Positions 3,763 to 61,529 of a stretch of 64,000 nucleotides of DNA are shown one piece after another. The stretch lies in contig JABDBE010000004.1 of NCBI GenBank assembly GCA_013288805.1, forward strand, positions 1-64,000, in the 5' to 3' direction. How positions within the stretch are numbered: position 1 is the stretch's first letter; each line of letters starts with the position of its first letter. The translations under genes were made by a program, and so were the position numbers. Below the pieces are notes generated by a model. That model saw only the letters and a list, made by a program, of their open reading frames with translations, searched no databases and had not been told where the DNA came from. Source of the DNA: Acidobacteriota bacterium (GTDB taxonomy: Bacteria; Acidobacteriota; Terriglobia; Terriglobales; Acidobacteriaceae).

Positions 3763-6700
3763 ATGAAACGCTACTTGTGTGTCTTGCTATTGTTGGTTTC
3801 TTCGCTGTCTTTCGCGCTCACTCCGGTCACCATTGATAGCGCGTCCATCAACTACACAGCACACACGCTGAGCGTTGTTGGGTCAGGCTTCTGCACTGGC
3901 GCTCTGCCCGCAGTCACTTTCAACACGACGCGACTCAAGGTGACCTCGGCGTGCTCGTCTTCCGCGGTCGTGGCTAGCCTGCCCATGCAGGCGGCAGGTT
4001 CTTACAGGTTGATAATTGCCAACAGCGGTGGAGCCTCGGCTACGTTCTATGTCACTTACGGCGCTGTCGGACCACAGGGAGCGACCGGGCCCATAGGACC
4101 GAAGGGAGCCACTGGTTTGACGGGAGCCACGGGGCTGCAAGGAGTTAAGGGAGCAACCGGCCTGACCGGAGCTACTGGTGCTCAAGGGATTGCAGGGCCG
4201 CAAGGTTTGACAGGTCTGACAGGAGCGACGGGCGCAGCAGGGGTAACGGGCGCAAATGGATCACAGGGGCCAACCGGGTTGACAGGAGCCACCGGAGCAG
4301 CAGGCCCTCAAGGACCAGCAGGAACGAATGGTACCAACGGAATAGATGGCATCAACGGGATCAACGGAACTAACGGCACGAACGGTACCGGCTTCAACTT
4401 CCGTGGGACGTTCGACCCCAACGCTTCCTATGCGGTTAATGATGTCGTGACCCTCGCCTACACGGGTAACAATATTACCTACAACGTCAACTTAACATTC
4501 GGCTCCGGTTCAGCGGTTGGCACAATTACAACCGATGGTACCGTAGGAGTGCTGACCCCATCTAACATCGTCAACTGGAACCTCACGTTGAACGATGGTA
4601 CCAAAACAGGGCTTCTGACATCGTCCAATACCACAATTTCGGGCAGCGGTTTAAGCGCCACACCAACCAATCTGCTATTCGACTACGGCACATGGGGCAC
4701 TCAGTTCGGTTTCTCGTCATCGGCGGGAGCGCTCTGTTTCACCGACTATACGAACTGCTTCCCCGGAGGAACCGGCCTCGGAACTTGGAGCGTCGGCGGT
4801 GACAATTTGTACTCGTTCGCCAGTGCTTCTGGCGTACAGCCAATCGCCACTGGTGGTGCTGCCGCGACTCCGGGCACGTCCACGTATGTCGCAACAGGTT
4901 CCGTAACAGCGGGGACCGCTATACCGGGCACGTCTCCGTGGGTAATGATGGCACAGGCTGGGACACAGGGAACTCCGGGTATCAATGGCACCAACGGTAT
5001 TAACGGAGCACCCGGAATTAACGGCTTGCCGGGCGCTCAAGGTCCGATGGGTTTAACAGGAACAGGTACGCCGGGGCCGCAAGGCCCGGCTGGTCCGCAG
5101 GGTATTCCCGGACCTCAGGGAGCGACGGGAGCAGCCAGCGTTCCTCCGGGCACGTGGAGCTACATTGCCTCCATGCCAACGGCGCACATCGCTGCTGCCC
5201 AAGGTGTGCTGAACGGCCAATTCATAGTCGCAGGTGGATCGCTCGGCACCGACGTTGAATCTTACAGCCCAGCGACCAGTACTTGGACCACCCTTGCACC
5301 GATGCCTCAACTTGTAGCGTATGCCGCAGGCGCGTTAATAAGTGGCCAATTCTACATGGTCGGCGGTTGCGTCAGCTCAGATTGCCGCGCCGGTGTAACA
5401 AACCAGATGGAAATCTACAACCCCACATCCAACTCGTGGTCATTTGGTCCGTCGATGCCAACCGCACGCTTCTATGCGGCTAGCGCTGTGATCAATGGAA
5501 AACTCTACGTCGCTGGTGGGACCACTGCCTGTCCGCCGTGCGGCAATGTATCCCCTCTCGAAATTTACGACCCAGTAGCAAACAGTTGGGCGACCGGGGC
5601 ACCAATGCCGGCCGCCATCGGTGGTGGGGGCGGAGCAGCGGTTAAAGGTAACCTGTACGTCGTCGGCGGTAGCAGCGGATCAATATCGCCTCCGCAATAC
5701 GTTTCTCAAGTGTCTATCTACAACCCAGGCAGCAACACATGGACGCAGAGTGTTTCGCCCATGCCCGTACCGAACACTGGGGCCGCAGTGGTAGTTGCAA
5801 ATGGTTTGATCTACGACATCGGTGGGAACAACGGTCAAGGTCTGTTGAATGCTGCCCAATCGTACAATCCAATTACGGATACCTGGACATCGTTGACTCC
5901 GCTGGATACGGCTCGGGGAGCGGAATCGGCCGGTGTAATCGGCGGTGTGATTTATCTAGCTGGGGGCTCTGAGGCAGGTTCTTCCGTGGCGACCGCTGAA
6001 TCCTTCTTCCAATATCCGCAAGGTCCGATGGGTCCAGCAGGTCCGATTGGACCTACTGGCGTAACAGGTCCGATGGGTCCGATGGGCCCGCAGGGGTCGG
6101 CCTCAGCCGTGCCCGGTCCCATTGGTCCGCAGGGAGTTCAGGGTCAACCCGGAATCACGGGTCCCGCTGGGTCGGCCTCAACCGTGCCCGGTCCTGTTGG
6201 TCCAGCAGGTGCCAATGGTACCCCCGGTCCGTCTTTAGCGGAAATGCGAGCGGCACTGATGCAGTGGTACCCGCAGACCTATCCGGCTGGAACCAACCCT
6301 GCTGCGATAGCATTCGATGGAAGCAACCTCTGGATTACAAATTACACTTCCAACGTAGTGACCAAACTACGCGCCAATGATGGTGTTATCGTGGGCACCT
6401 ACCCAACAGGGGCGTGGGCTCTCGGCATAGTCTTCGACGGAGCCAACATCTGGGTCGTAAACTCAAACAGTAACACCGTGACCAAATTACAGGCCAGTGA
6501 CGGCACCCTCGTTGGGACCTATCCAGTAGGATCCAGTCCTTCTGAAGCGGTGTTCGACGGCGCCAATATTTGGATCACAAACACTTGGAGCAACTCGGTG
6601 ACTGAGTTGCAAGCTACGGACGGCGCGGTCATCGGTAGCTATGCAACCGGTGCCAATCCCAAGGGCATAACGTTTGACGGGGCCAACATCTGGGTCTCAA

Positions 6701-7101
6701 ATTATGGTTCTAACAACATGACCGAGCTGCGGGCTAGTGATGGCGCGGTTCTCGGCACCTTCCCGCTTGGAACAGGTCCCTACGGTGTAGCATTCGACGG
6801 ACTTAACGTCTGGGCAGTGAACGGCGGCGACAACACCGTGACGAAGTTACGGGCTAGTGACGGCACACTCATTGGCACCTATCCGGTCGGTCACACTCCG
6901 TATTTCATGGCGTTTGACGGGAGTAACATCTGGGTCACAAACGGCGGTGACAATACGGTGACCAAGCTACGAGCCAGCAACGGTGCATTTCTCGGTACCT
7001 ACGCAGTTGGTTTGAGGCCTGACATGGTGGCGTTCGATGGAAGCAATGTCTGGGTCACAAATGATGGTGGAGGAGTGACCAGAATAGGCGCAACCAAATA
7101 A
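3763..7101 (+). CDS. secreted mosaic protein: IPT/TIG-like N-terminus, collagen-like Gly-X-Y, Kelch repeats, second collagen block, YncE-like beta-propeller
   Basis: Signal peptide; [22 protein letters not shown]..; Kelch motifs '[21 protein letters not shown]'; ~9 repeats of '[33 protein letters not shown]'. Confidence 0.95.
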
Positions 7102-7587
7102 GAACGGCGGGTTCGGGGCTCCGTCTGGGTTTCGCCGAGCCAATGCGAATCGGCTTGGGACGAGCTATCGTTCACTGAGTCCCCTCCCCGTCATGCCCGC
7201 AATAAGCTTGAGTTAGCCGATTTCAAGATTTCCGCGTCATTGATGGCCGCTCATCTGAGAGCCGATCAACTCCGCTCTATTACGACTCTCCGAATCCGTG
7301 ACTGCGGAACAGGCTTCCACACTATTCCATAAGCGCCGCTGCTCCCGCTGTAGTAAGCAGCGCAAGGACGCACGATCTGGTTCAGGTCGCCGTCGACACC
7401 AGCGAAGCAAAGTTCGGGGGGAACAGTTAAGCCCTAAGTCGCGCTTCCTTAATAACGACCACCGCGCCAAATGATGCGACCACGGGCACGGGCGAGGTGA
7501 CGACGCCCAAGGGAACGCTCAAGCGCAACGTAGTTCTTCCGGGTCACGAAGTAACACCTTGAGCCGTTCAGAATCAAAGAATACCGG

Positions 7588-7616
7588 GCCGCTCGCTGTC
7601 TGGGCGGCTTTTCTTT
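7588..7616 (+). terminator. candidate rho-independent terminator
   Basis: gccgc...gcggc stem followed by ttttctttt. Confidence 0.4.
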
Positions 7617-7791
7617 TGCATGAAGCCGAAGGTCGTTGTGCGGGGTAACTGTTGTAACCAGTCGTGCCCTCCAAAAGTGCTTGACACCACCGACATTGTC
7701 AGAGAGGCCTGATTACGACGGTTGAGAAGCGCCGTCTATCGAATCCGCGCGAATCTCATGCGATCGGCAGCTTCGTGGGGGACCGGGACGG

Positions 7792-8544
7792 CTAGTCGTG
7801 GAGGACAACGTTCAGAAGTGAGCTGTGGACTTGCAGCCCGCCATTGTAGTGAATAAAACCCAATTTCCTGAACCGGTTCATGAAGAAGCTAACCCGCGAG
7901 CGGGTTGTGCCTACCATTTCGGCCAGCGTCTCCTGGCTGATTCTAGGAACTAACGTCTCGGGTGTCCCTTCTTTGCCAAAATGAGCGAGCAGTAAAAGGA
8001 TCCGGGCCAGCCTCTTTTCACTGGAATTGAAAAGCTGATCAACCAGATCTTCTTCGTAACGGATGTTCCGCGCCAACAAATAGGCCACGAACAGATCGGC
8101 CAATTCGTGCTTCCGATGAAGTGCTTCTATCATGGCTTTTTTGTCGATTCGCAGAACAGCGCAATCCGTCATCGCGGTTGCAGAGCCCATGCGGAGAGCC
8201 TGACCTGCCAGCGCACCTTCACCGAAGAACTCGCCGTCCCCTAATATGCCAATGGTTGCTTCCTTGCCATCATGGGACACGACCGTGAGTCTTACCTTGC
8301 CGGTCCGGATATGAAACACTGCATTAGCGGTATCCCCTTGCGCAAAGATTCTTTGGTGCTTCGGGAAAAGCACAAATTTCCTGCCCTCGCCGATGGTTGC
8401 GAGGAATGCATTGGGGTCAAAATCGCGTCTCTTCTTAACTGCGACACGGGACCGCATAGTCTTCCCAATTGCACAAATATCACATGCCAATTTGATGGTC
8501 TGTTGGGCGTCACACATAGGCAGAAGATTCTTGTTCGGTCGCAC
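7792..8544 (-). CDS. Crp/Fnr-family transcriptional regulator
   Basis: cNMP-binding domain 'IFAQGDTANAVFHIRTGKVRLTV...GILGDGEFFGEGAL' and HTH 'ISQETLAEMVGTTRSRVSFFMNRFRKLGFI'. Confidence 0.95.
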   Translation of the reverse strand: MRPNKNLLPMCDAQQTIKLACDICAIGKTMRSRVAVKKRRDFDPNAFLATIGEGRKFVLFPKHQRIFAQGDTANAVFHIRTGKVRLTVVSHDGKEATIGILGDGEFFGEGALAGQALRMGSATAMTDCAVLRIDKKAMIEALHRKHELADLFVAYLLARNIRYEEDLVDQLFNSSEKRLARILLLLAHFGKEGTPETLVPRISQETLAEMVGTTRSRVSFFMNRFRKLGFIHYNGGLQVHSSLLNVVLHD

Positions 8545-8597
8545 GCCCGATCTCGAGAGTCTTTTTAAATAGCGGAATCGCTTTAGCTGTTGGTCAC

Positions 8598-9386
8598 GTG
8601 GTGCGCCTTGCAGCGGTCAATATTGCTCAGTATCAGGGTCGTATCCAGCATAGTGTTGATACCATGCCTAGCGAGCGGACGAATACCGCAGGGAAGCACG
8701 TCAGCAACAAAATACTTCTATCGATCTCCGATAGCGACTACAGCTCGCTTCGTCCTCATCTCGAATACGTTAGCTTGCCCGACCATCTCGTTCTTCACGA
8801 GGCTGGTGGAAAGCTAGAATTTGCGTATTTTCCGAATCGCGGTTTGATTTCTCTTGTAGTCATAATGAAAGATGGGAAGACCGCCGAAGCCGGCATAGTC
8901 GGCAATGAGGGCTTTGCAGGAACACAGGCGGCTGTTGGCCTGCGCAGGGCCCCGCTTCAAGCGGTGGTACAAATCACCGGGGATGGGTTTCGGGTCGAGG
9001 TCGGCGCTTTGCAAAACAGTTTGGAATCCGCTCCGCACCTGCAATTGATGTTGAGCCGCTATGCAGTAGTTCGGGGAATGCAGGTTGCACAAACAGCCGC
9101 GTGTAATCGGCTGCACGATATTGAACAGCGCCTTGCACGGTGGTTGCTAATGACTCAGGATAGAGTGGATTCAGGGTCGCTGCCCATCACTCATGATTTT
9201 CTCGCAACGATGCTAGGGACGGATAGACCTACCGTAAGCTTGGCAGCCAGTGTTTTGCAGAGTAAGGAGATCATCCAGTACACTCGCGGTGCAGTTAAGA
9301 TCGTGAACCGTAATAAACTTGAAGGTTCTGCCTGCGAGTGCTACGGGGTTATCCGACAGTACGATGGCGAGCTGGGATTGAAATAA
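8598..9386 (+). CDS. Crp/Fnr-family regulator (divergent from previous)
   Basis: 262 aa; 'YFPNRGLISLVVIMKDGKTAEAGIVGNEGFAGTQAAVGLRRAP', 'LATMLGTDRPTVSLAASVLQSKEIIQYTRG'; the likely start may be 8664. Confidence 0.88.
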   Translation: MVRLAAVNIAQYQGRIQHSVDTMPSERTNTAGKHVSNKILLSISDSDYSSLRPHLEYVSLPDHLVLHEAGGKLEFAYFPNRGLISLVVIMKDGKTAEAGIVGNEGFAGTQAAVGLRRAPLQAVVQITGDGFRVEVGALQNSLESAPHLQLMLSRYAVVRGMQVAQTAACNRLHDIEQRLARWLLMTQDRVDSGSLPITHDFLATMLGTDRPTVSLAASVLQSKEIIQYTRGAVKIVNRNKLEGSACECYGVIRQYDGELGLK

Positions 9387-9664
9387 GTTCGGAAGTGAGG
9401 ACTCGCCTAGTGCTTAGTTTCGGATGAATCGTTCTCGGGCAGCGGTGTCTGGCGCTCTTCTTCTGTTCCCGCTCCCACTGAGGACGGTGGGTACTGTAGA
9501 TGTTTGTCCCTCTCCTTCAAGAGCGCAGCCTTTACTTTAGCCACCGTGTTTTCGCGTTTCCCCGGACTCTATTACGAGTGCAAGCTTCCGTCTGCGCGAT
9601 ATTGACCAATGTCACGAATCCAGTTCCCGCTTCTAAATTTGCGGTCAGGAACAAGATCTGTTCG

Positions 9665-9965
9665 GCGTATCTGCTGGCGCGGAACATCCGATACGAAGAG
9701 GATTTGGTTGACCAACTCTTCAACTCCAGCGAGAAGAGACTAGCTCGGATTCTGCTTTTTGCTTGCTCATTTCGGCAAGGAAGGCGTGCCCGAGACGGTA
9801 ATCCCCAAGATCAGCCAGGAGACCCTTGCAGAGATGATAGGCACGACCCGGTCGCGGGTCAGTTTTTTTATGAATCGGTTCAGAAAGTTGGGTTTTCTTG
9901 ACTATGATGGCGGCAGCGGGCTGCAAGTTCACAGTTCACTTCTAAATGTCGTTCTCCACGACTAG
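9665..9965 (+). pseudogene. truncated, frameshifted duplicate of the Crp/Fnr gene at 7792-8544 (C-terminal part)
   Basis: 'AYLLARNIRYEEDLVDQLFNSSEKRLARIL' continues in another frame as 'LAHFGKEGVPETVIPKISQETLAEMIGTTRSRVSFFMNRFRKLGFLDYDGGSGLQVHSSLLNVVLHD'; one extra t in ctttttgctt near 9757. Confidence 0.9.
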
Positions 9966-10018
9966 CTTCCGCCCTCGGGACCCGGAAGCCCTGTTCAAGG
10001 AGAACAGCGATGAGCCGA

Positions 10019-10228
10019 TCATGCATTCGCCGGATCTAACCCTGAGAGCGGCGCCATTTTCGTCGCGACCAGCACTCCCAACAACGTGGCTGTGTTACGA
10101 ACGCTTCCCGAGATGCTAATGAGTGCTTCTGAGACGAGGGGATGTTGCCCCGCCAGCACGTCAAGGCGGTCACTCACGTTGTAGAGTTGTCGAACTTCGT
10201 TCAGAATCGCTTGCGGATGCATGGGCAC
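10019..10228 (-). CDS. small hypothetical protein
   Basis: 69 aa ORF MPMHPQAILNEVRQLYNVSDRLDVLAGQHPLVSEALISISGSVRNTATLLGVLVATKM. Confidence 0.55.
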   Translation of the reverse strand: MPMHPQAILNEVRQLYNVSDRLDVLAGQHPLVSEALISISGSVRNTATLLGVLVATKMAPLSGLDPANA

Positions 10229-10319
10229 ACGGCTTTCCTGCGAGCCTAAGAAGAGAAAACTTCAGATGAGTCGTCAGAGAAGGCGGGGTTAACCGCCTTC
10301 CCGTGTCAAAAGCTCACAC

Positions 10320-10640
10320 TTATGCTGTTGCGTGAACCGCGATGTTATGGAAGGTCGAGGTGACAACGTCGCAGGTCTGAACCTTGGGCGTTCCCTCGAT
10401 AAATCTCGCCAGCGTCTTCAACACTTCGGGGTAAGCATTGGTGTTGTACGCTTCGGCATCGATCTTGTTTTCCCACAGACTGATTGCCGTCACATCAACT
10501 CCGCCCGGACCGGCGATGGTAAGTTCGTCCTTGAATCCCTTTTGTTTACGAAGCAAAGGAAGAACGTCTTTATCAAACATTCGCGTATAGTCGGAAAGAG
10601 TATTGGATTTCAGATGAATCGAGACATTGCGAGCAAACAT
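10320..10640 (-). CDS. antibiotic-biosynthesis-monooxygenase-like dimeric alpha/beta-barrel protein
   Basis: 'MFARNVSIHLKSNTLSDYTRMFDKDVLPLLRKQKGFKDELTIAGPGGVDVTAISLWENKIDAEAYN'; upstream aacctaaggaggtt-like SD. Confidence 0.75.
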   Translation of the reverse strand: MFARNVSIHLKSNTLSDYTRMFDKDVLPLLRKQKGFKDELTIAGPGGVDVTAISLWENKIDAEAYNTNAYPEVLKTLARFIEGTPKVQTCDVVTSTFHNIAVHATA

Positions 10641-11091
10641 GGCAACCTCCTTAGGTTGGAGTTCTAAGAAAGAAAACTTCAGATGGACTGACTTAGTTCA
10701 GGGAACCTGAAATGAGGAGAAGGTGGTAACCACCTCAGCTACAGGTATAGCACTTCAGTGGCCCTCTGCATCAACCGCGCAACTTGTTGTTTCGATGTGT
10801 CCGAAGCGTATATGCGGCGCCTTCCACCGTGTAGCTTTGGCGGAAAGCAAGTACAAAGAATACTAAGTTTCAAGCGGCGGGTCCTGATTCTGGGTGATTT
10901 CCAGCGATACTGAGCAATTGTGAGCAGGCACAGCCCGAGAAAGCTTTCATTCTTGCAACTGGAGTAGAGAGCGGCCTTGGCGTTTCCCTGGCTTGGACTA
11001 GACCGAAGCGGAACGACCGTCAGGCGAGTCACGCTTCTCCTTCCCGGTACGCGATTTCTTGCCTCGGTGATCGCAGCAGAGCAATGCGAAT

Positions 11092-15316: not shown

Positions 15317-17128
15317 TTAGTTCTTGGTATTACGAACGACGGGGGCGAAATAGCGTACCGTCACATCTTCCCCCATATCAACGACTTGATATTGCCCGAC
15401 GGACTCCCGACGCGATGTGGGTTTGGGTGTGAAATAGCGCACCGTCACGTCCTCTCCGATGTGAACAACTCTCGTCACGAGCACCACCGTTTGGAGGAGG
15501 GTGTCTGTCCTCGCGTCTGCCACCGCAATTGGTATGCTCCGAAACCTGGGCCTGTTTTCAGCGGGCGCCGTCTTTGCGGGTGACAAGGGTACCTGCTCCT
15601 CGATGGTCGCCATGCTCTGCAGCTCTGAAGATCCCAAGGACAAACGTGGGTGACGGTCGCCGTATGCAATCCAGCAAGCTAACACTAGGACGGTAACAAC
15701 CGCTGCCAAGTGCCCGTTCCACGGCCGCTTGTGCCAGGGAACGGGCTTCGTTGGCTGCATGAGCAATCTCGCAAGCACGTCGGGCTGCTTTGGTCTGTGC
15801 TTTGGCATCGTGGCTTGGCCAGGCTGGTAAATCGTATACTTGTTTGCTGAGGCCAGTGTGGATGTACCGTCATTGAGAAACTCCGCCACTGAGCGGAGCT
15901 TGAGGACATAGCACTCCTCGTGAACGGCCTGCCCGTACTCATTAGTCTGACTGGTCTCCAGGAGAACTGGGCTATTGCAAATCGAGCACGCTGGAGGTGG
16001 CTGCAAGCCTCTCAGAATGGAGGATACAATCACTTGCTGGCGATCACCGAGCCGACTGGATAGAGTCGTCGCGGAGCGTGGAACGATAGCCCGCATTGTT
16101 GTTCCATGACCATCCGATTCGATTTCCAGTTTGCCGTTCAATTCGTTCATACGCTCGCGCATTCCGGCCAGGCCGACCCCCGTTTCCGCCCTCGCTTCAC
16201 GAAGTCGAGCCAACCGCTCCGCCGGTATACCGGACCCATCATCTCGTATTTCCAGAACTACCTTTTCCAGTTGGGGATTAAAGCAGACGCTGACCTCCGA
16301 AGCGCCAGAGTGGCGATGTACATTCGTCAAGCTCTCTTGGAGAACGCGGAAAAGAGCAATCTCTATCGCGATTGGGAGTCGCTCTTGAGCGGTTGCGATA
16401 TCCAACCTTACCTTGACCCCGGTGCGCTTGGCGAAGCCCTCGACATACCACTCCGCTGCACAAGCAAAGCCGACCTCATCCAGGAGTGGTGGGTGCAGCA
16501 GGTAAGACATGGTGCGAATTTCTTCGATGGCTTGATCCGCCAGGGCGGCAACCTCGGAGGCAAGAAGCATGGTGGATGGGTTTTGTTTGCAGTGTTCCTC
16601 AAGAAAAGAAATACTGATTTTCAGAGCTGCCAATGTTTGACCCGTGCTGTCGTGTAGGTCACGAGACAACTTGCGTTTCTCCTCATCCTGCACTTTGAGG
16701 AGCCGCTGCGACAGTCGCTGCAGTTCGGCCGTGCGTTGTAGAATCACCGATTGAAGTCGGGAATGCTCAAGCGCCATTTGTCGAGAATGCTTTGAAAGGG
16801 GCCACATAAGTCCTCCTGGAGCTGCAGCGGCCGAATTCAACTGCGCGTCCTGACGATCCGTCTTCTGCTTGCGTACGCGTTTCGTTCGGATCTTCGCTGC
16901 ATCTCCGATCCACAACTCGAAGTGCAACTCGGAGAGCAATCGTTCGAACCAGCGCCCGTGTCCGCCGGCTTCCATTCCTACACGCACCTTCTGACCTGCT
17001 AGTGCACGGTAGAACTTTTCCGCATCCTCCCGATGCGCTAGTCGCTTTTCCTGGAACTCTCCGGTGTCGGTATCCACCGAAGCCATTTGCTGAAACTCGG
17101 GATGAAAATCTACTCCTATAATGATCAT
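15317..17128 (-). CDS. chimeric protein: IS110 transposase N-terminus (aa 1-96) fused in frame to a LytS/NarX-type histidine kinase plus TM/C-terminal extension
   Basis: N-term 'MIIIGVDFHPEFQQMASVDTDTGE...GMEAGGHGRWFERLLSELHFELWIGDAAKIRTKRVRKQKTDRQDAQ' (IS110 DEDD domain); then 'LSRDLHDSTGQTLAALKISISFLEE' (HisKA_3) and 'ESLTNVHRHSGASEVSV..IRDDGSGIP' (HATPase_c). Confidence 0.9.
   Translation of the reverse strand: MIIIGVDFHPEFQQMASVDTDTGEFQEKRLAHREDAEKFYRALAGQKVRVGMEAGGHGRWFERLLSELHFELWIGDAAKIRTKRVRKQKTDRQDAQLNSAAAAPGGLMWPLSKHSRQMALEHSRLQSVILQRTAELQRLSQRLLKVQDEEKRKLSRDLHDSTGQTLAALKISISFLEEHCKQNPSTMLLASEVAALADQAIEEIRTMSYLLHPPLLDEVGFACAAEWYVEGFAKRTGVKVRLDIATAQERLPIAIEIALFRVLQESLTNVHRHSGASEVSVCFNPQLEKVVLEIRDDGSGIPAERLARLREARAETGVGLAGMRERMNELNGKLEIESDGHGTTMRAIVPRSATTLSSRLGDRQQVIVSSILRGLQPPPACSICNSPVLLETSQTNEYGQAVHEECYVLKLRSVAEFLNDGTSTLASANKYTIYQPGQATMPKHRPKQPDVLARLLMQPTKPVPWHKRPWNGHLAAVVTVLVLACWIAYGDRHPRLSLGSSELQSMATIEEQVPLSPAKTAPAENRPRFRSIPIAVADARTDTLLQTVVLVTRVVHIGEDVTVRYFTPKPTSRRESVGQYQVVDMGEDVTVRYFAPVVRNTKN
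16840..17128 (-). mobile_element. IS110-family transposase 5' fragment
   Basis: First 96 codons of the chimera match IS110 DEDD domain motifs; homology stops at TDRQDAQ. Confidence 0.85.
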
Positions 17129-24735: not shown

Positions 24736-25627
24736 TCTGCTTCCTCTTGCCGGTTCATCCTTAAGGCTTGCCCGATGGTGCTCTACTGCTGCGGGTTGCG
24801 TGGATGGAGAGGCCCATTTCCGGGCGAAACGTACTGCACACTCGTATCGCTGGCAAATGGTTCCGTAATGAACTTTCTCATCTCGGGACTTTTATGTCTG
24901 ATCAAAAACGCTCACAACCAGTTCGCACCAGACGCAAAAAGAAGGACGCCCAGGAATGCTGGGGACTGAAATGAATGGAGGCAATCCGCAGGTTCTTTCG
25001 TCGCGGCCCGGAGTTCACATCTCCAGAACATTTGATCGCAGCATGGTAACAAATCTTTTGTGCTTTGCGATAATGGGTGTAAACCTCGCGAGGAGGGAAA
25101 TCAGACTTTGTGTTTCTCGGCTTCGGAACTACATGCAGCAAAGAGCCGGACAGCGCGCGGTAAACGCCCTTGTGTCCGTTACAGCAGTTCCCGGTTTGTC
25201 GTCAAGTCGGGGAGCGCCGGGATAAACAACCGGCACGTTGTAGGGGATGAAAGAGCCCTATAGGAAAGAAGAACAGTGACTCCATCTTGGCCTCAAGTCT
25301 TGCAGTCGGCGCCGCGAGGTGTCTCTTGAAGGTAGATAGAGGTACCGCTGGGCTGGGCTATTGAGCTTCGAAAAGCCGATGGAACAGGTTGCCGACTCTA
25401 TTCCGTGTGGAGGAAGGCAGCACGACAGCCATAATCGCGAGTGAATTGTCGGTCCTGCACAGTCTAAGAATCCGCGCACGCTAAGAAAGAAAATGCCGAG
25501 AACCAGGAGATCTCCCGCACGTCTTGCCTCAGCGACGGCTCTCAGCGATAGCAAGTCAGCCGCGTGACGAAAAGCAGCAGAGACAATCCGATACCAGCGA
25601 TGCCGTTGGCCCTGATTGCTCGATGGA

Positions 25628-49740: not shown

Positions 49741-49989
49741 TCAACCGCTAAAATCATCGCCTCGACCATGGTACATACTCGCGTGGCATGCATGACACAG
49801 CGTGATCAGATTTTCTTCCGAATCGTCGCCCGAGTGGCTCCGGAATTCTTTGTGGTGGACTTCAAGATTGGATCTTCTGCCGCACGACTGACATCTCCAG
49901 CAATCGCGACGCAGCACTTGGTTGCACAGCTGTTCGTAACGCTCGGGATCGAGCTGCAGACGAGGCTGCTTAGGCCGCACGCAGGTCAT
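49741..49989 (-). CDS. small HNH endonuclease
   Basis: 82 aa; 'LDPERYEQLCNQVLRRDCWRCQSCGRRSNLEVHHKEFRSHSGDDSEENLITLCHACHASMY'. Confidence 0.93.
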   Translation of the reverse strand: MTCVRPKQPRLQLDPERYEQLCNQVLRRDCWRCQSCGRRSNLEVHHKEFRSHSGDDSEENLITLCHACHASMYHGRGDDFSG

Positions 49990-50388
49990 GCCGCTTGCTC
50001 GGTTACGGAGTCCAAGAATACTTTTCGTTCTTCACTTGGAAGGAACTGGAAGAAACGCAGGGCTGACTGTAAAAGCACGCCGGGGTTTTCGTTCTCTAAG
50101 TTGGCTCCGCGTGTAAGCTTGGCTCCGGACCAATCCACGATCTCGAGATGAAGGGTCAGCAGTTCTGATCCTGGAGCAACGGGCGTCGCCCGCCCGGTGA
50201 AGGAAGTTTCAACTCGATCATCCCCGGATTGCCGGTTAATTCGTGTCCTCTAATTTTGTAAGTCTGTAAAAACAGGACACATGTTGGGTTCGTTTCGCTC
50301 AAAAGACCGAGGGCGCATCTTTGTATATCGACGATTCCCAGCTTCCTGCAAGATATCGGTCGAGCCATTACTGATAATCGAATAATAC

Positions 50389-50572: not shown

Positions 50573-51259
50573 CTACTTTTCTCGTTCCCGCCTTTCCCTT
50601 TGTGCGTCGCGCAGACTCTTGATTGTGTCGCGGAGATCGCGCTTCAATCCCAATCGGTAGCGAGTTACAACGGAAAGGGAACTTACCATAACAGCCTCCA
50701 GCTCGAGGTGATCAGCCTTGTTTTCCTGGTTCTTTACTGAGGCGTGCCAGCCAGGCTGTATCTGGTTCTGAATGACCGCGGGGCGGCGTGAAGCAGTGGA
50801 GCCAACGTTGTCCTTGCCAGAAACGGCGCGGACCACCAACCGCTCGCAATCCCAGCCGCGGTTCAGCAGCGGAAGATCGAAATTGTCGATGGGAAGGCGG
50901 GGGCTTTTTCGAAAAACGCCGTCCACCTTACCCGAGAGTTCCTGACGACGTGAAAGTTCCTGTGCTTCCATGCCTTCTTGCAAATCGAGTTTCCAGTATA
51001 TAATCGCGAGTTCTTTTGTGTAGAAATCCTCCTCTAACCCTTGCGGATGCCAATCTTCACGACAGGATTGAAGTAGCTCCTGAAAATCCTCCCGCTCTTT
51101 GTCCGTGTTTAGAACGACCCCGACGGCGAGAATGCCGTGTTTAAAAGCGTTGTACCGTGCATTCGATTTTCCTGGTTCGGTCCGAGGACCCGTAGAGGAT
51201 TGTGCATTGGCTCGATTGGCGGCCAGAACGGCCTCGGTTACTTGTTTCTTACGCTTCAT
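50573..51259 (-). CDS. conserved hypothetical protein of the 'AANRANAQxSTGPxTxxGKxxxxxNAFKHG' family
   Basis: MKRKKQVTEAVLAANRANAQSSTGPRTEPGKSNARYNAFKHGILAVGVVL...; ORF track start 51334. Confidence 0.82.
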   Translation of the reverse strand: MKRKKQVTEAVLAANRANAQSSTGPRTEPGKSNARYNAFKHGILAVGVVLNTDKEREDFQELLQSCREDWHPQGLEEDFYTKELAIIYWKLDLQEGMEAQELSRRQELSGKVDGVFRKSPRLPIDNFDLPLLNRGWDCERLVVRAVSGKDNVGSTASRRPAVIQNQIQPGWHASVKNQENKADHLELEAVMVSSLSVVTRYRLGLKRDLRDTIKSLRDAQRERREREK

Positions 51260-51521
51260 GATCTGCTCCTCCCGGACGCGGCGGTGCTTCGAGGCGAATT
51301 CTCCCAATTTGGCGTCCAATCGCGACTGGACCAATCAGGAAAATCGCGCTTACTGCCGCGATCCAATGAAATTGGTTTGGAATTGCTCTACAGGCTTTAC
51401 TTACCAGGTTCTTGCAGATCTCACTCTCGAACGTCAATAGACTAAATGACGGATCCCGCTTGCTGCAAGCTTTTTCTGAATCGCCGTCAGGGCGACATGC
51501 ACATCCAGGTTTCATTCCCCG

Positions 51522-51690
51522 GTGCACCGGCGTGATCAGGTTCCTTCGAATCATCGCCCGAGTGACTTCGAAACCTTTTATGGTGAACCTCCAGGTTGGA
51601 CATCGAGCCGCAAGATTGGTATTTCCAGCCATCGCGATGTAGCACTTGGTTGCGCAGCTGTTCGTACGAACCTGGGTGTCGACTTCAGAG
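51522..51690 (-). pseudogene. HNH endonuclease remnant
   Basis: Minus-strand reading: PGSYEQLRNQVLHRDGWKYQSCGSMSNLEVHHKRFRSHSGDDSKEPDHAGAP (compare intact copies at 49741 and 55222); tail frame broken. Confidence 0.88.
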
Positions 51691-52081: not shown

Positions 52082-52333
52082 TTATTTCGCTTTTTGCCCG
52101 GTCAGCAGCCAATCGACTGACTTTCCGAAAGCTTTGCTGATAGCCAATAGTACGGCTGAACCTGGCTCTTTCTCCCCATGTTCCAGTGCTGATAGGTAAC
52201 TCTGCGTGACGCCGATGCGCCGTGCGAACTCGACTTGCGTCGTGTCAAAACCTCTGAGCTCCCGGATTCTTCGACCGATGGCACGGAGGTCGATTTGCGA
52301 GTCACCCTTCGATTTTGTTCTTGATCGTGTCAT
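52082..52333 (-). CDS. XRE-family HTH repressor
   Basis: 83 aa; 'IGRRIRELRGFDTTQVEFARRIGVTQSYLSALEHGEKEPGSAVLLAISKAFGKSVDWLLTG'. Confidence 0.95.
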   Translation of the reverse strand: MTRSRTKSKGDSQIDLRAIGRRIRELRGFDTTQVEFARRIGVTQSYLSALEHGEKEPGSAVLLAISKAFGKSVDWLLTGQKAK

Positions 52334-52364
52334 CTCTATTGAGATATAATATTTCTATTGAGAT
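52332..52364. promoter_or_regulatory. tandem palindromic operators of the XRE repressor
   Basis: ATCTC-TATT-GAGAT (52332-52345, overlaps the XRE start codon) and ATTTC-TATT-GAGAT (52351-52364). Confidence 0.7.
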
Positions 52365-52475
52365 ACGCCGTTATTATCCTTAACAATCGGGCCAAGCATC
52401 AATTTCACTTTGAGCCCAAATCCATGAGGCATGTTTCTCTGTGTTCCTTTTAGCTTAGCAGCGACGAGTTGACAA

Positions 52476-53288
52476 TTGATGATTCTGGATCGGCAAGGTT
52501 GCAACACACGCAGCGTTCCGGGAGGTATGGCATTGGAGAAAAAGACGATTACGTACAAGTCGAACATGAGAATAGCCAGGCAATTGTGGCATCGAATCTC
52601 ACCCGTTAGCTCACGTGCTTTGAGAGAGCTTACGTGCGAATATCAGCTCTCTGTTGCGGCAGGGGATCTACTCCTTATCGAGGGTCGATGGTATGTCACG
52701 CACACCGGTTTGTTAGGCCTAGCGCGTCGTAGTCGGTGTGCTGGGATACATGTTCGGCCTGTGTTGCAATTCTGCGATCCCTCTTCCCTGCGCTGGGCCT
52801 TCGAAGCAACTGTCTACAAGTCGCGCACTTGCAAAGGCTTCGTCGGATTTGGTGACGCTGCTCCGTCGAATGTTTCTCAGTTGGTCTACGGCGCTGAAAT
52901 GAGGGTCGCCGAAACTCGCGCGGTCTGCCGCGCACTCCGGAAAGCCTACGGTGTTGGCATCTGCTCCGTCGAAGAAATCGGCTCGTTCAAGGGCCAAACC
53001 GAACCGACCAGCGAACCAAGAAAAACGCCGCGGCCTACAAACGGAAATGGTTACGGCGGTCGCACCGTCCGCGATCATCTTTGCCAAATCATTCGTCAAC
53101 ACAAACTCGATCCCAATCTCGTCAAGGCCTACGCTGTGGATTTCACTGGCACCAAGGCATTGCGCGACGCCACGCGCGAGCAAGTTGAAACGTTTGTCGC
53201 ACACTTGGCCGATTCCGCCGAGAAAAACCGCGATGCGCTGCTCTGCCAGCTCAACAGCTATCTCGGCCAGAAAGAAGGTGCAGCATGA
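52476..53288 (+). CDS. hypothetical protein with 'GAEMRVAETRAVCRALRKAYGVGICSVEE' motif; tentative single-strand-annealing/ERF-RecT-like role
   Basis: 270 aa; AETRA-type helix pattern seen in phage annealing proteins; real start may be 52527 or 52566. Confidence 0.7.
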   Translation: MMILDRQGCNTRSVPGGMALEKKTITYKSNMRIARQLWHRISPVSSRALRELTCEYQLSVAAGDLLLIEGRWYVTHTGLLGLARRSRCAGIHVRPVLQFCDPSSLRWAFEATVYKSRTCKGFVGFGDAAPSNVSQLVYGAEMRVAETRAVCRALRKAYGVGICSVEEIGSFKGQTEPTSEPRKTPRPTNGNGYGGRTVRDHLCQIIRQHKLDPNLVKAYAVDFTGTKALRDATREQVETFVAHLADSAEKNRDALLCQLNSYLGQKEGAA

Positions 53289-53713
53289 AACGACAGATTG
53301 CAGGTCTCCACGCCGCGGATCGCTGCGCGGCCGACCAAATTCCTGATGGACTTTTCCTGGTTCGCGTGCAGCGAGTCTGGTTCCGTCGGCAAGCACAAAA
53401 GCCGTATTACACTCTCGCTCTGGCCATACTGGAGCCCAGCCGATTTTCAGACCACGTCATTTCGAGCCGGCTCTATTGCAACCCCAAAGCCCTCTGGAAG
53501 TTCAATTGGTTCCTGCGCGACTTTGGCTACGATGTCGAACTGCTGGGTCGCGATGAAGTCGATGAATCACAGCTGATTGGCCTCAGCGGCGTGGTGAAGA
53601 TCAGCCATGTGATCATCAACGGCGCTCCCCTGCTCCGGTTGGATGGTTTTGCCCCCGCCGGTCGCTGGGAAGAACTTTCTCCCTCCAACCTCGACGGCTC
53701 GCAGGTGGCGTGA
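53285..53713 (+). CDS. small hypothetical protein of the cassette (ssDNA-binding-like context, function unknown)
   Basis: 142 aa; ATGA overlap with the previous gene; 'PKALWKFNWFLRDFGYDVELLGRDEVDESQLIGLSGVVKISHVIINGAPLLRLDGF'. Confidence 0.8.
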   Translation: MKRQIAGLHAADRCAADQIPDGLFLVRVQRVWFRRQAQKPYYTLALAILEPSRFSDHVISSRLYCNPKALWKFNWFLRDFGYDVELLGRDEVDESQLIGLSGVVKISHVIINGAPLLRLDGFAPAGRWEELSPSNLDGSQVA

Positions 53714-54516
53714 TGACCTACAGCTACACGCAAGTCAGCCAATATTTGACCTGTCCTCGGCGCTACCGCCATCGTTATCTCGACGGCTGGCAGGAAAAAG
53801 ATACGCGCGCCGCCATGCTCTTTGGGCGGGCATTCGAGCGGGCGCTGGCTGCTTATTTCCGGCGTGAAGATGCAGCCACTGCTTTGTTTCGCGAATGGAG
53901 CGTGTGTCAAAACCAGGGCTTGCACTACTCGCACGGCGACACCTGGGATCGTATGTTGCAACAAGGCATCCAGCTTCTGGACCGATTCTGCCAGGACGAC
54001 CGCATTCGCATTCGTCAGCCTGGCCACAACCTGCAAATCAAGTTCACGCGACAAGTTTCTGCCAGAAACGATTTCGTGGCCTATATCGATGCCATTGGAA
54101 AATTAGATGGGACGCGCTGTCTGCTCGAATGGAAAACCACGTCAAGTCGCTACCCGGAGGAGCCCGACGGACTGCTGGCTCTCGATCCGCAACTGGTTTG
54201 CTATTCCTGGATGACCGGAATTTCCGAAGTGGCTCAGCTCGTGTTCGTTCGCAAGCGGCTGATCGAGATCCAGTATCTGCACACCACCATCAGCGAAGCG
54301 CAGCGGCAGGAATTCGGCCAGTTGGTGGAAGACACCATCCGGCGAATCGAGTCCGCACAGTTTCTACCGCACAGCGGCATTCGCTTCCCACAGAACCCCT
54401 GCAGCACTTGCCCGTACTTGGGACTATGCCTGGGAAAACAAGAGTTGGTCGATGCCGCTCTGGTGCGGCGGCCAGGAGCCGAGAACCTTGGTTGGCTTGA
54501 CGAGCTTACGTACTAG
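53710..54516 (+). CDS. PD-(D/E)XK nuclease superfamily protein (RecB/Cas4-like with C-terminal Cys cluster)
   Basis: 'YSYTQVSQYLTCPRRYRHRYLDGW', 'AYIDAIGKLDGTRCLLEWKTTSS', C-term 'NPCSTCPYLGLCLG'; overlaps the previous gene by 4 bp. Confidence 0.9.
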   Translation: MMTYSYTQVSQYLTCPRRYRHRYLDGWQEKDTRAAMLFGRAFERALAAYFRREDAATALFREWSVCQNQGLHYSHGDTWDRMLQQGIQLLDRFCQDDRIRIRQPGHNLQIKFTRQVSARNDFVAYIDAIGKLDGTRCLLEWKTTSSRYPEEPDGLLALDPQLVCYSWMTGISEVAQLVFVRKRLIEIQYLHTTISEAQRQEFGQLVEDTIRRIESAQFLPHSGIRFPQNPCSTCPYLGLCLGKQELVDAALVRRPGAENLGWLDELTY

Positions 54517-54526
54517 GAATCCGCCC

Positions 54527-55225
54527 ATGCTGCCCAAGCTCAATCGTCGCCGAGCGCTGTTCGTGCTCACTAAGATCGATGAGATTCTTGTTTGGGAAAA
54601 GCAGAAGGAAATCGAACGCGATACCCGGTTCGTGGAACTCGGACGTTATCTGTGCGAAGTTCGCGCGGGACAGTATTGGCGGGTGGAGAATGTGAAGTCC
54701 TTCGACGAATTCCTGGAAAGACGGTTTCCGGTGTCGCGTAGGAAAGCTTATTACCTGATGTCGATTCATGAGCACTTGCCACCGCAGGCGACGAAGGAAT
54801 TGAAGGAAGTGGGGTGGACGAAGGGATTGGAGTTGGCGAAAATTGCGAGACGGGACCGGCAGCAGTTCGATTGTGCAACCTGGTTGCACAAAGCCCGCGA
54901 AATGCCCAAGGAAGAGTTTAAGCAGGAAGTCGAGCGGGAGTTAACCGGCCAAGAAACAGAACCGTGGGAGATGGTCTATTTCAAGTTGTACAAGAGCCAG
55001 ATCCCAATCGTTGAGCAGGCAATCGAAACAGCCGCTTTGATGCTGGGCAGCGATAAATCCCGGGGCTACTGCCTGGAGATGATCTGTGCCGACTTCCTGG
55101 CGGGAGCAAACCTGGAGAACGAAAATCCCGATGTTCTCTTGCAGTCGGCACTACGGTTCTTCAAGTTTCTTCCCGGCGAAGAGAAGCAGACATTTCTGCA
55201 CCACGTGACCGACAAGGCGTCATGA
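54527..55225 (+). CDS. hypothetical mostly helical protein of the cassette
   Basis: MLPKLNRRRALFVLTKIDEILVWEKQKEIERDTRFVELGRYLCEVRAGQYWRVENVKSFDEFLERRFPVSRRKAYYLMSIHEHL; ORF track start 54452. Confidence 0.85.
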   Translation: MLPKLNRRRALFVLTKIDEILVWEKQKEIERDTRFVELGRYLCEVRAGQYWRVENVKSFDEFLERRFPVSRRKAYYLMSIHEHLPPQATKELKEVGWTKGLELAKIARRDRQQFDCATWLHKAREMPKEEFKQEVERELTGQETEPWEMVYFKLYKSQIPIVEQAIETAALMLGSDKSRGYCLEMICADFLAGANLENENPDVLLQSALRFFKFLPGEEKQTFLHHVTDKAS

Positions 55226-55449
55226 ATTCGGTTCGACCGAAACGTGCGCCCCAGCGGCTTGATCCCGACCAGTACGACACTCTCCGCAACCAGGTGCTCC
55301 GCCGCGATGGCTGGCGATGCCAAATTTGCGGTGCGATGTCCAACCTCGAGGTGCACCATAAGGATTTTCGAAGTCACTCGGGCGCGGACTCGGAGGAGAA
55401 CCTGATCGCGCTATGCAATGGCTGCCATACAAAAATCCATCGCAGCTGA
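55222..55449 (+). CDS. small HNH endonuclease
   Basis: 75 aa; 'LDPDQYDTLRNQVLRRDGWRCQICGAMSNLEVHHKDFRSHSGADSEENLIALCNGCHTKIH'; ATGA overlap with the previous gene. Confidence 0.95.
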   Translation: MNSVRPKRAPQRLDPDQYDTLRNQVLRRDGWRCQICGAMSNLEVHHKDFRSHSGADSEENLIALCNGCHTKIHRS

Positions 55450-60356: not shown

Positions 60357-61529
60357 TCAACCAGTGCGGCGTGACGTACTAGAGGTACCACTCAGCGATG
60401 TGGAACGCTCCGGAGAATTCGGCTGAAGCAGTCCTCCAAGACCAGCCGCTGCGAATATCGCCTGTACTGATTTGCTACTATACAACGCAGTTCCGATAAC
60501 CGTTCCGAGCGTGTTCGTGATGAGATCAGTCATGCCAGAATCCCGGGTTGGGAGAAATGCCTGCAACACTTCAATTGTAAGACTGACCACCCCGCCGAGA
60601 ACGATTGTGGCCAGTGCTACTCGGTTAAGGCGTCGCACCGACACGAAATATGCACAGAAAAAGAACCCAAGTGGAACGAAACCACCGATGTTGATCAAAA
60701 CATTTTTCCAGTAGCTCCAACTGGGCTGGAACTCATCCCAAGGCCTTTCAAGGAAGGGTGCATGCAGAACGAAAAAATGTCCTGGGATGCGAAGATCATT
60801 TTCTGAATTGACCTGGTTATGAACGGTGGTGCCTGACCCTTCGTTGAATAGGTAGAGCTCGATCGGACCTTCGTTCTTGATCTCAGCGTTCTGGTTCGTT
60901 CTCCACGCGTTGTAGTGTTGCAAGACCTCCGTCTCGGTCAGCGCTCGATTGTAAATTGCAAGACTCCTTATCTGACCTTGCCAGCCGTTCTCCACTAGCG
61001 GGTGGTTGCCAACAAACAGTTGACCGTTCAGGTCGTCACTTGAGAGTCCGAACCGCGGCAAGGTGCGGACGAGACCACCGTTCAGGTAAACGGCTGTGCC
61101 CTGCGCGTTCGAAGTGAGCGTAACAAACAGTGGGTTGTTCTTCCGAAAAACGTGCCCGATGTAGACCTTAATCTTTCTAGGACGTTGCTGATCAACAACC
61201 ATGCGTTGCAAGAATAAGTCGTCTATAGATTGCTGCACCGAGAATGCAACGATTTGATTCTCCGGTTTGTAGAACGCGAGTATGGTGCCCCCGATATCAC
61301 TGTGATCAGGTTGCACCCAGATCTCGACGCTGCAGGATATTCTGTCTTTCGGACCAGCAAAACTAGGCGCCCCGGAACTCAGTACTACCCCGTATTGACC
61401 AACATGAAGACCGTTGCGATTACCTAGCCAACTCACCTGATTCTTGGGTGCATGGAATGGCCAAAGTCCCGCGATCAAGATGATAATTAAGACAGCCGCA
61501 CAGAGCAGTCCCAGCATTTTCTTCTGCAT
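60357..61529 (-). CDS. LamG/concanavalin-like domain plus VanZ-like membrane protein
   Basis: 'SCSVEIWVQPDHSDIGGTILAFY...GWQGQIRSLAIYNRALTETEVLQHY' then 'LINIGGFVPLGFFFCAYF...LTIEVLQAFLPTRDSGMTDLITNTLGTVIGTALY'. Confidence 0.92.
   Translation of the reverse strand: MQKKMLGLLCAAVLIIILIAGLWPFHAPKNQVSWLGNRNGLHVGQYGVVLSSGAPSFAGPKDRISCSVEIWVQPDHSDIGGTILAFYKPENQIVAFSVQQSIDDLFLQRMVVDQQRPRKIKVYIGHVFRKNNPLFVTLTSNAQGTAVYLNGGLVRTLPRFGLSSDDLNGQLFVGNHPLVENGWQGQIRSLAIYNRALTETEVLQHYNAWRTNQNAEIKNEGPIELYLFNEGSGTTVHNQVNSENDLRIPGHFFVLHAPFLERPWDEFQPSWSYWKNVLINIGGFVPLGFFFCAYFVSVRRLNRVALATIVLGGVVSLTIEVLQAFLPTRDSGMTDLITNTLGTVIGTALYSSKSVQAIFAAAGLGGLLQPNSPERSTSLSGTSSTSRRTG

Follow-up and report, generated by a model that had tools for sequence, protein, structure and literature searches.

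What does a compact set of five same-strand genes behind a divergent regulator do in the genome of a soil bacterium of the Acidobacteriota? The question is raised by positions 52,082 to 55,449 of contig JABDBE010000004.1 (assembly GCA_013288805.1), within the 64,000-nucleotide stretch analyzed here (positions 1 to 64,000, hereafter the window). The initial annotation of this DNA had proposed a module of a single-strand-annealing protein (SSAP), an accessory protein, an exonuclease and an HNH nuclease under its own repressor. It had named two possible origins: a recombination system derived from a phage or an integrative and conjugative element (ICE), or a stand-alone defence system. The core of this proposal stands, supported by the predicted fold of gene 1, the OB fold of gene 2 and the co-occurrence of the genes in other genomes. 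The cassette is real and conserved and probably phage-derived, and we consider it quite likely that its five genes form an operon for phage-type, RecA-independent recombination under the control of the divergent repressor.

Conservation of the cassette as a unit

All six genes of the locus are present in the arrangement described before. An XRE (HTH_3) repressor-like gene on the minus strand (52082..52333; Pfam HTH_3 E=7.4e-15) lies opposite five plus-strand genes, namely gene 1 (52527..53288), gene 2 (53285..53713), gene 3 (53713..54516), gene 4 (54527..55225) and gene 5 (55222..55449). The overlaps seen earlier are real, with ATGA at the junctions of genes 1 and 2 (53285/53288) and of genes 4 and 5 (55222/55225). 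The start codon of gene 3 is either ATG 53713, whose A is the final base of the gene 2 stop codon, or GTG 53710, and 10 bases lie between the end of gene 3 and the ATG of gene 4 at 54527. By computation, the five genes, taken for one probable transcript before, form an operon. The start of gene 1, previously placed at TTG 52476, had to be corrected: orthologues align from 52527 (ATG) or 52533 (TTG; ATG in locus L128), and a GGGAGG at 52520-52525 stands just ahead of both codons. Judged from the alignment, the true start is probably one of these two and not 52476.

A scan of GTDB genomes yielded 118 related stretches, from which 79 loci were taken for analysis. All 79 belong to the Acidobacteriota, by title to Terriglobales and Acidiferrales, and include one cultured strain, Occallatibacter savannae AB23. 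The five genes keep the same order and strand in 50 of the 53 loci with enough flank on both sides, and the remaining three are truncated copies. Overlapping start and stop codons of the cassette genes are likewise conserved among relatives, and the conserved stretch runs from the regulator to the gene 5 stop codon. Across 200 genomes of the order, strong matches (E<=1e-20) to genes 1, 2, 3 and 4 were found in 19, 17, 18 and 20 genomes, respectively, and genes 1-4 occur together in 16 of the 23 genomes having any of the four. Median dN/dS lies at 0.10-0.20 in all five genes, indicating purifying selection; with synonymous sites near saturation, these values are rough.

The initial annotation had treated a gene 1 unrelated to annealing proteins, together with a lack of co-occurrence in other genomes, as the sign of a chance cluster. 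Because the order is conserved and the genes co-occur, a chance cluster of unrelated genes is ruled out by synteny; the conserved start/stop overlaps speak against it as well, no support for it was found, and we give it practically no credence. The cassette is a real, conserved unit.

Predicted functions of the cassette genes

Gene 1 had been noted for a motif, AETRA, resembling those of phage SSAPs, and the likeness extends to its predicted fold. The motif is invariant in 21 gene 1 orthologues, which have G-D-A-x-P and AETRAVxRALRKAYGxG in common. The AlphaFold2 (AF2) model shows a helix (26-39), a hairpin (48-51/54-57), a second helix (59-68), strands 73-78, 89-97 and 105-111 and a further helix (124-141), and its sheet and helix elements mostly reach predicted local distance difference test (pLDDT) values of 84-95; a separate helical domain forms the C-terminus. 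The Rad52 SSAP superfamily has the element order alpha1, beta-hairpin, alpha2, three-stranded sheet, alpha3 (PMC9870868), and the model contains all five conserved elements in this order: alpha1 and the beta-hairpin stand ahead of a three-stranded antiparallel sheet, which has one helix packed across it and is accompanied by a second helix. Comparison with predicted viral proteins gave 33 fold matches at E<=1e-3, most of them without an informative name. Where names were informative, they were RecT, ERF and Rad52; 'DNA repair protein' and a single exonuclease ranked a little lower, and named predicted viral SSAPs matched down to E 4e-5. Paenibacillus phage API480 and Rossellomorea phage phiT1 encode sequence homologues of gene 1. 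In API480 the homologue is followed by genes for an SSB and a primase, in this order, and in phiT1 it is annotated as 'DNA repair and recombination protein'. Besides that, an AETRA-motif protein is encoded directly upstream of a PDDEXK_1 nuclease on an unrelated plasmid, pDESTI.01 of Desulfomonile (L318 2181-3837). We take gene 1 to be an SSAP by its modeled fold, outside the named sequence families, with predicted annealing activity.

The accessory gene 2, for which an SSB-type product had been considered, matches no Pfam family, and its AF2 model (pLDDT 86, predicted template modeling score 0.78) is a five-stranded OB fold. The best Foldseek match is PrgE of pCF10 (E=8e-6), a protein which binds both single- and double-stranded DNA (PMC11137577), followed by SSB, RPA and PriB among other OB folds. 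Gene 2 thus models as an OB-fold, SSB-like protein with predicted DNA binding.

The description of gene 3 as a RecB-like nuclease with a Cas4/AddB-type cysteine cluster was borne out by profile matches (Pfam PDDEXK_1 E=4.9e-19; phrog exonuclease 2.8e-11) and by the alignment. The PD-(D/E)XK residues D126, E139, K141 and Q160 are invariant, as are C230, C233 and C239, and C14 is present in all full-length rows. AddB and Cas4 likewise build their iron staple from one N-terminal cysteine and three C-terminal ones that flank the RecB-like domain, and nucleases of this kind resect in the 5'-3' direction (PMC3466216). By these residues, gene 3 is a PD-(D/E)XK exonuclease of the AddB/Cas4 type with a four-cysteine iron-sulfur staple (Cys14, 230, 233, 239) and predicted activity. 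A CRISPR Cas4 was considered and rejected: the match to TIGR00372 cas4 (E 1.1e-6, 28.6 bits) is below the cutoff of 65, and the cassette holds no cas1/cas2 or other cas genes. Distant relatives of gene 3 in other families of Acidobacteriota (L082-L087) have no AETRA protein in the neighboring open reading frames (ORFs) examined, and neither gene 2 nor gene 3 has a sequence match in deposited phages.

Gene 4 is conserved to the same degree as gene 3 and encodes a DUF3102-like protein (phrog_17202 E=2.9e-15, weak Pfam DUF3102). Distant homologues occur in 29 phage records; in the two inspected, Vibrio phage LV6 and Stenotrophomonas phage DLP_3, the homologue adjoins RecA-like and RuvC genes. The 'rubredoxin-type' protein of LV6 and its neighbor were tried as homologues of gene 3 and gene 2, respectively, and gave no profile match; sequence searches of genes 1-4 against solved structures returned nothing useful. 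The earlier call of gene 5 as HNH agrees with Pfam (HNH E=9.5e-11) and with the invariance of D29, C33, C36, H45, H46, N60, C65 and C68. With the histidine, the asparagine and four zinc-type cysteines intact and its metal-binding residues invariant, gene 5 is a complete, stand-alone HNH gene with predicted endonuclease activity.

As to control, the gene in the divergent position is exchangeable between copies: relatives carry an RHH regulator in 28 cases, an XRE regulator in 10 and both in one, and in 15 none was detected. A putative operator (52332..52366) lies over the XRE start codon and consists of the boxes ATCTCTATTGAGATA (52332-52346) and TCTATTGAGATAC (52354-52366), both around TCTATTGAGATA. 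These boxes are nearly unchanged in the window, L128 and L088, all of the XRE type; the second is identical in the three and the first slightly different in L088, while the surrounding intergenic sequence has diverged. Since the boxes are kept near the repressor start while the rest diverges, an autoregulated switch is suggested, with the XRE or RHH regulator as the likely repressor of the operon.

The scheme that we consider likely for the working of the cassette is as follows. The divergent, autoregulated repressor would hold the operon down until released. The gene 3 nuclease would then resect DNA ends and leave single strands, which the OB-fold protein of gene 2 would coat and the annealing protein of gene 1 would pair with single-stranded DNA complementary to them. 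A nick or break that starts or resolves the reaction is probably made by the HNH protein (gene 5), and gene 4 would serve as a conserved partner.

Copy number, mobility and probable phage ancestry

The cassette is patchy, being found in ~10% of the genomes of the order, and multi-copy in relatives. Whole or decayed copies number up to about ten per genome (the maximum of ten matches to gene 3, fragments included, was seen in G165), are scattered in the chromosomes and usually stand without other virus genes. On the tree, copies of the same genome cluster, though not perfectly (16 label changes against 24-30 in shuffles). The genome under study has a further partial copy on another contig (G000 contig C116), and the window itself contains two decayed 3'-end copies upstream of the cassette on the minus strand, both absent from the initial annotation. 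One is a second gene 5 (51541..51675; tblastn 73%, E=5.7e-19), which forms a 126-nt inverted repeat with gene 5 at 79%; the other comprises a second gene 4 tail and gene 5 (49771..50108; tblastn 66-73%, E=1.5e-29 and 1.2e-13). Remnants occur near intact cassettes at 28 per Mb versus ~0.6 per Mb genome-wide, the latter value being estimated from gene 4 matches only. In the flanks of L123-L201, 22 of 23 remnants have the same orientation as the cassette and most are 3' ends, the oppositely oriented remnants of the window being exceptional. This density and orientation suggest a head-to-tail accretion at resident copies.

At one locus (L050 of G099, 6235-10895), the flanks are ~40 bases apart in two sister species, and the cassette was therefore acquired there as an insertion of ~4.66 kb. 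The empty-site junctions show no clear target duplication. The insert also holds a 445-base truncated copy of an SGNH-hydrolase-like host gene, the full copy of which lies elsewhere in the same genome; the borders of the cassette are therefore not fixed. A candidate empty site at G656 C502 was discarded as uninformative, the contig ending at a repeat. Some copies are inherited, since G070 and G643, two species of one genus, have the cassette beside the same right flank. The best reading is that the cassette is mobile and multi-copy in Terriglobia. A domesticated recombination or repair operon, kept for the benefit of the host, would share the purifying selection, the locus common to two species and the clustering of copies by genome. 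Such an operon would be expected to be widespread and single-copy, whereas this cassette occurs patchily and in multiple copies, many of them decayed, with repressors that can be exchanged and at no constant location; we regard domestication as rather improbable.

Some copies of the mobile cassette are accompanied upstream, on the minus strand, by a gene for a KHG-type protein, by DUF5763 or by DUF5763 and a terminase large subunit (TerL). Of 47 cassettes, 13 have a KHG-type homologue in the 4 kb upstream, and none has one downstream. The window encodes such a protein (NAQSSTGPRT...NAFKHG; 50573..51334, minus strand), probably a left-arm gene. Terminase genes are found in a minority of copies only: TerL is split in the IMG/VR contigs L031, L032 and L053, and a single-chain Terminase_6 (Terminase_6N/6C) is present in L045 and L156 and also near a decayed cassette in L174. 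In L045 (4589-10788), on a host chromosome, nine intact genes follow one another, namely DUF5763, a Terminase_6 TerL, a small protein, RHH and genes 1-5. No capsid, portal, tail or integrase gene was seen in the flanks of eight loci, where 77 proteins matched 41 viral families and the 25 best-represented of these were covered, nor was there an integrase with att site as in phage-inducible chromosomal islands (PICI) or P4-like satellites. With no capsid, portal, tail or integrase gene in the loci examined, the cassette does not class as a prophage.

Split terminases were also seen in larger viral contigs, and the stretches fetched from these hold no cassette genes. In L114 (G124 C29), a split terminase at ~9.3-11.6 kb, with ATPase and nuclease parts on two overlapping ORFs, has a prophage-like setting and no cassette.

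Because of the phage homologues and the terminase-linked copies, a phage-derived system is favored over defence. A stand-alone antiphage system built from Cas4-like and HNH nucleases under an XRE regulator would be in keeping with the nucleases, their control and the patchy distribution. Its PADLOC matches, however, are generic ones to Cas4, HNH and HTH models and point to no defined system, the recognized flank families of the eight loci include no defence genes and the flanks are ordinary host genes. Moreover, annealing protein, OB-fold protein and exonuclease make up a recombination set, and a sensor or toxin-like component is missing. Nothing supports a defence role, which we hold to be very unlikely.

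We infer that the cassette goes back to phage-like elements of Terriglobia, a family in which the other, divergent arm can include a DNA-packaging terminase, and that most chromosomal copies have shrunk to the regulator and the five genes. For the element, their role would be RecA-independent recombination, for example in concatemer formation, repair of its own DNA or integration by annealing. A more specific form of this idea is a mobile element of a new kind in which DUF5763, terminase, small protein and RHH face genes 1-5, without capsid or integrase genes of its own, packaged by a helper phage and entering the chromosome through its own annealing system preferentially beside resident copies. 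Such preferential entry would explain the ~45-fold higher remnant density near cassettes and the common orientation of 22 of 23 remnants; we consider this form a speculative one, with the odds clearly against it. A different history, in which the genes are debris of dead prophages, that is, surviving pieces without a present role, would fit the many truncated copies, the decayed remnants in the window and the terminase and DUF5763 genes at some loci. The five genes, however, are repeatedly intact together while the rest is gone, all five are under purifying selection, the flanks lack phage structural genes, and the insertion of ~4.66 kb, delimited by the empty sites in sister species, is far below phage size. 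Prophage debris thus appears unlikely.

Several points weigh against the reading as a phage-type recombination operon. Gene 1 matches no Pfam family, including RecT, ERF and Rad52, in a profile search and is therefore placed in a fold superfamily only; its best fold match in the PDB is RAD52 (E=0.08, prob 0.35), which is weak and not significant alone, followed by dsRBD-type folds. The targets of the XRE/RHH regulator are predicted only. Around most chromosomal copies no further phage gene is found, and the three terminase-bearing viral contigs measure 4-10 kb and could be chromosomal fragments called viral for their terminase. Finally, intragenomic spread would account for the clustering of copies of one genome just as well as phage infection would.

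Related systems and further features of the window

The cassette belongs to a known kind, the SSAP-exonuclease modules. As in lambda Red (beta/exo), RecET and the pair of annealing protein and alkaline exonuclease of the SXT ICE (PMC3118119), a Rad52-superfamily SSAP stands beside an exonuclease in a mobile-element operon, here together with an SSB-like protein. In contrast to these systems, gene 1 represents an AETRA-motif group of its own that falls in none of the named Pfam families, the nuclease belongs to the Cas4/AddB type, two extra conserved genes (DUF3102-like and HNH) are present, and the cassette is stand-alone and multi-copy in chromosomes. Compared with the Rad52/RecT/Erf superfamily (PMC9870868, PMC11783212), gene 1 has the same predicted element order, but no significant match to Pfam RecT, ERF or Rad52 and an extra C-terminal helical domain. 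Gene 3 has the one N-terminal and three C-terminal cysteines of the AddB/Cas4 nucleases (PMC3466216, PMC5704561), whereas the cassette lacks a helicase and cas1/cas2, and the family of gene 3 is PDDEXK_1 (PF12705), with cas4 below cutoff. Gene 2 has the OB fold of PrgE (PMC11137577) at ~15% identity and stands in a recombination operon, PrgE in a conjugation operon. In phages LV6 and DLP_3, the gene 4 homologue likewise lies beside strand-exchange and junction-nuclease genes, which are RecA-like and RuvC there and not SSAP and HNH. Phage satellites of the PICI and P4-like kinds (PMC13376191) are similarly small, capsid-less and repressor-controlled, sometimes with packaging genes, but no integrase or att site was found here. 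The five-gene make-up, the AETRA-type SSAP and the multi-copy, largely phage-free dispersal are not described in the open-access literature searched, where we found no account of this cassette.

The cassette offers a so far uncharacterized group of annealing proteins along with the OB-fold protein and exonuclease that naturally accompany them. This set helps to study RecA-independent recombination and might serve for recombineering in a phylum where genetic tools are scarce. In addition, the presence of phage-type recombination machinery as many small chromosomal copies across Terriglobia, with no visible integrase, raises the question of how such cassettes move.

Downstream of the cassette, the window encodes a 'GLWPFHAPKN' protein at 60357-61529, 5 kb away, and a protein of the same kind adjoins the cassette of L039 (11034-12173; G070 C14); this common neighbor may reflect coincidence or a shared region. 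Elsewhere in the window, a 603-aa ORF on the minus strand (15317-17128) resembles, by eye only, an IS110-type transposase (IIIGVDFHPEFQQMASVD), and positions 25250-25472 on the plus strand match the group II intron D1-D4-6 (Rfam RF02005, 97.8 bits).

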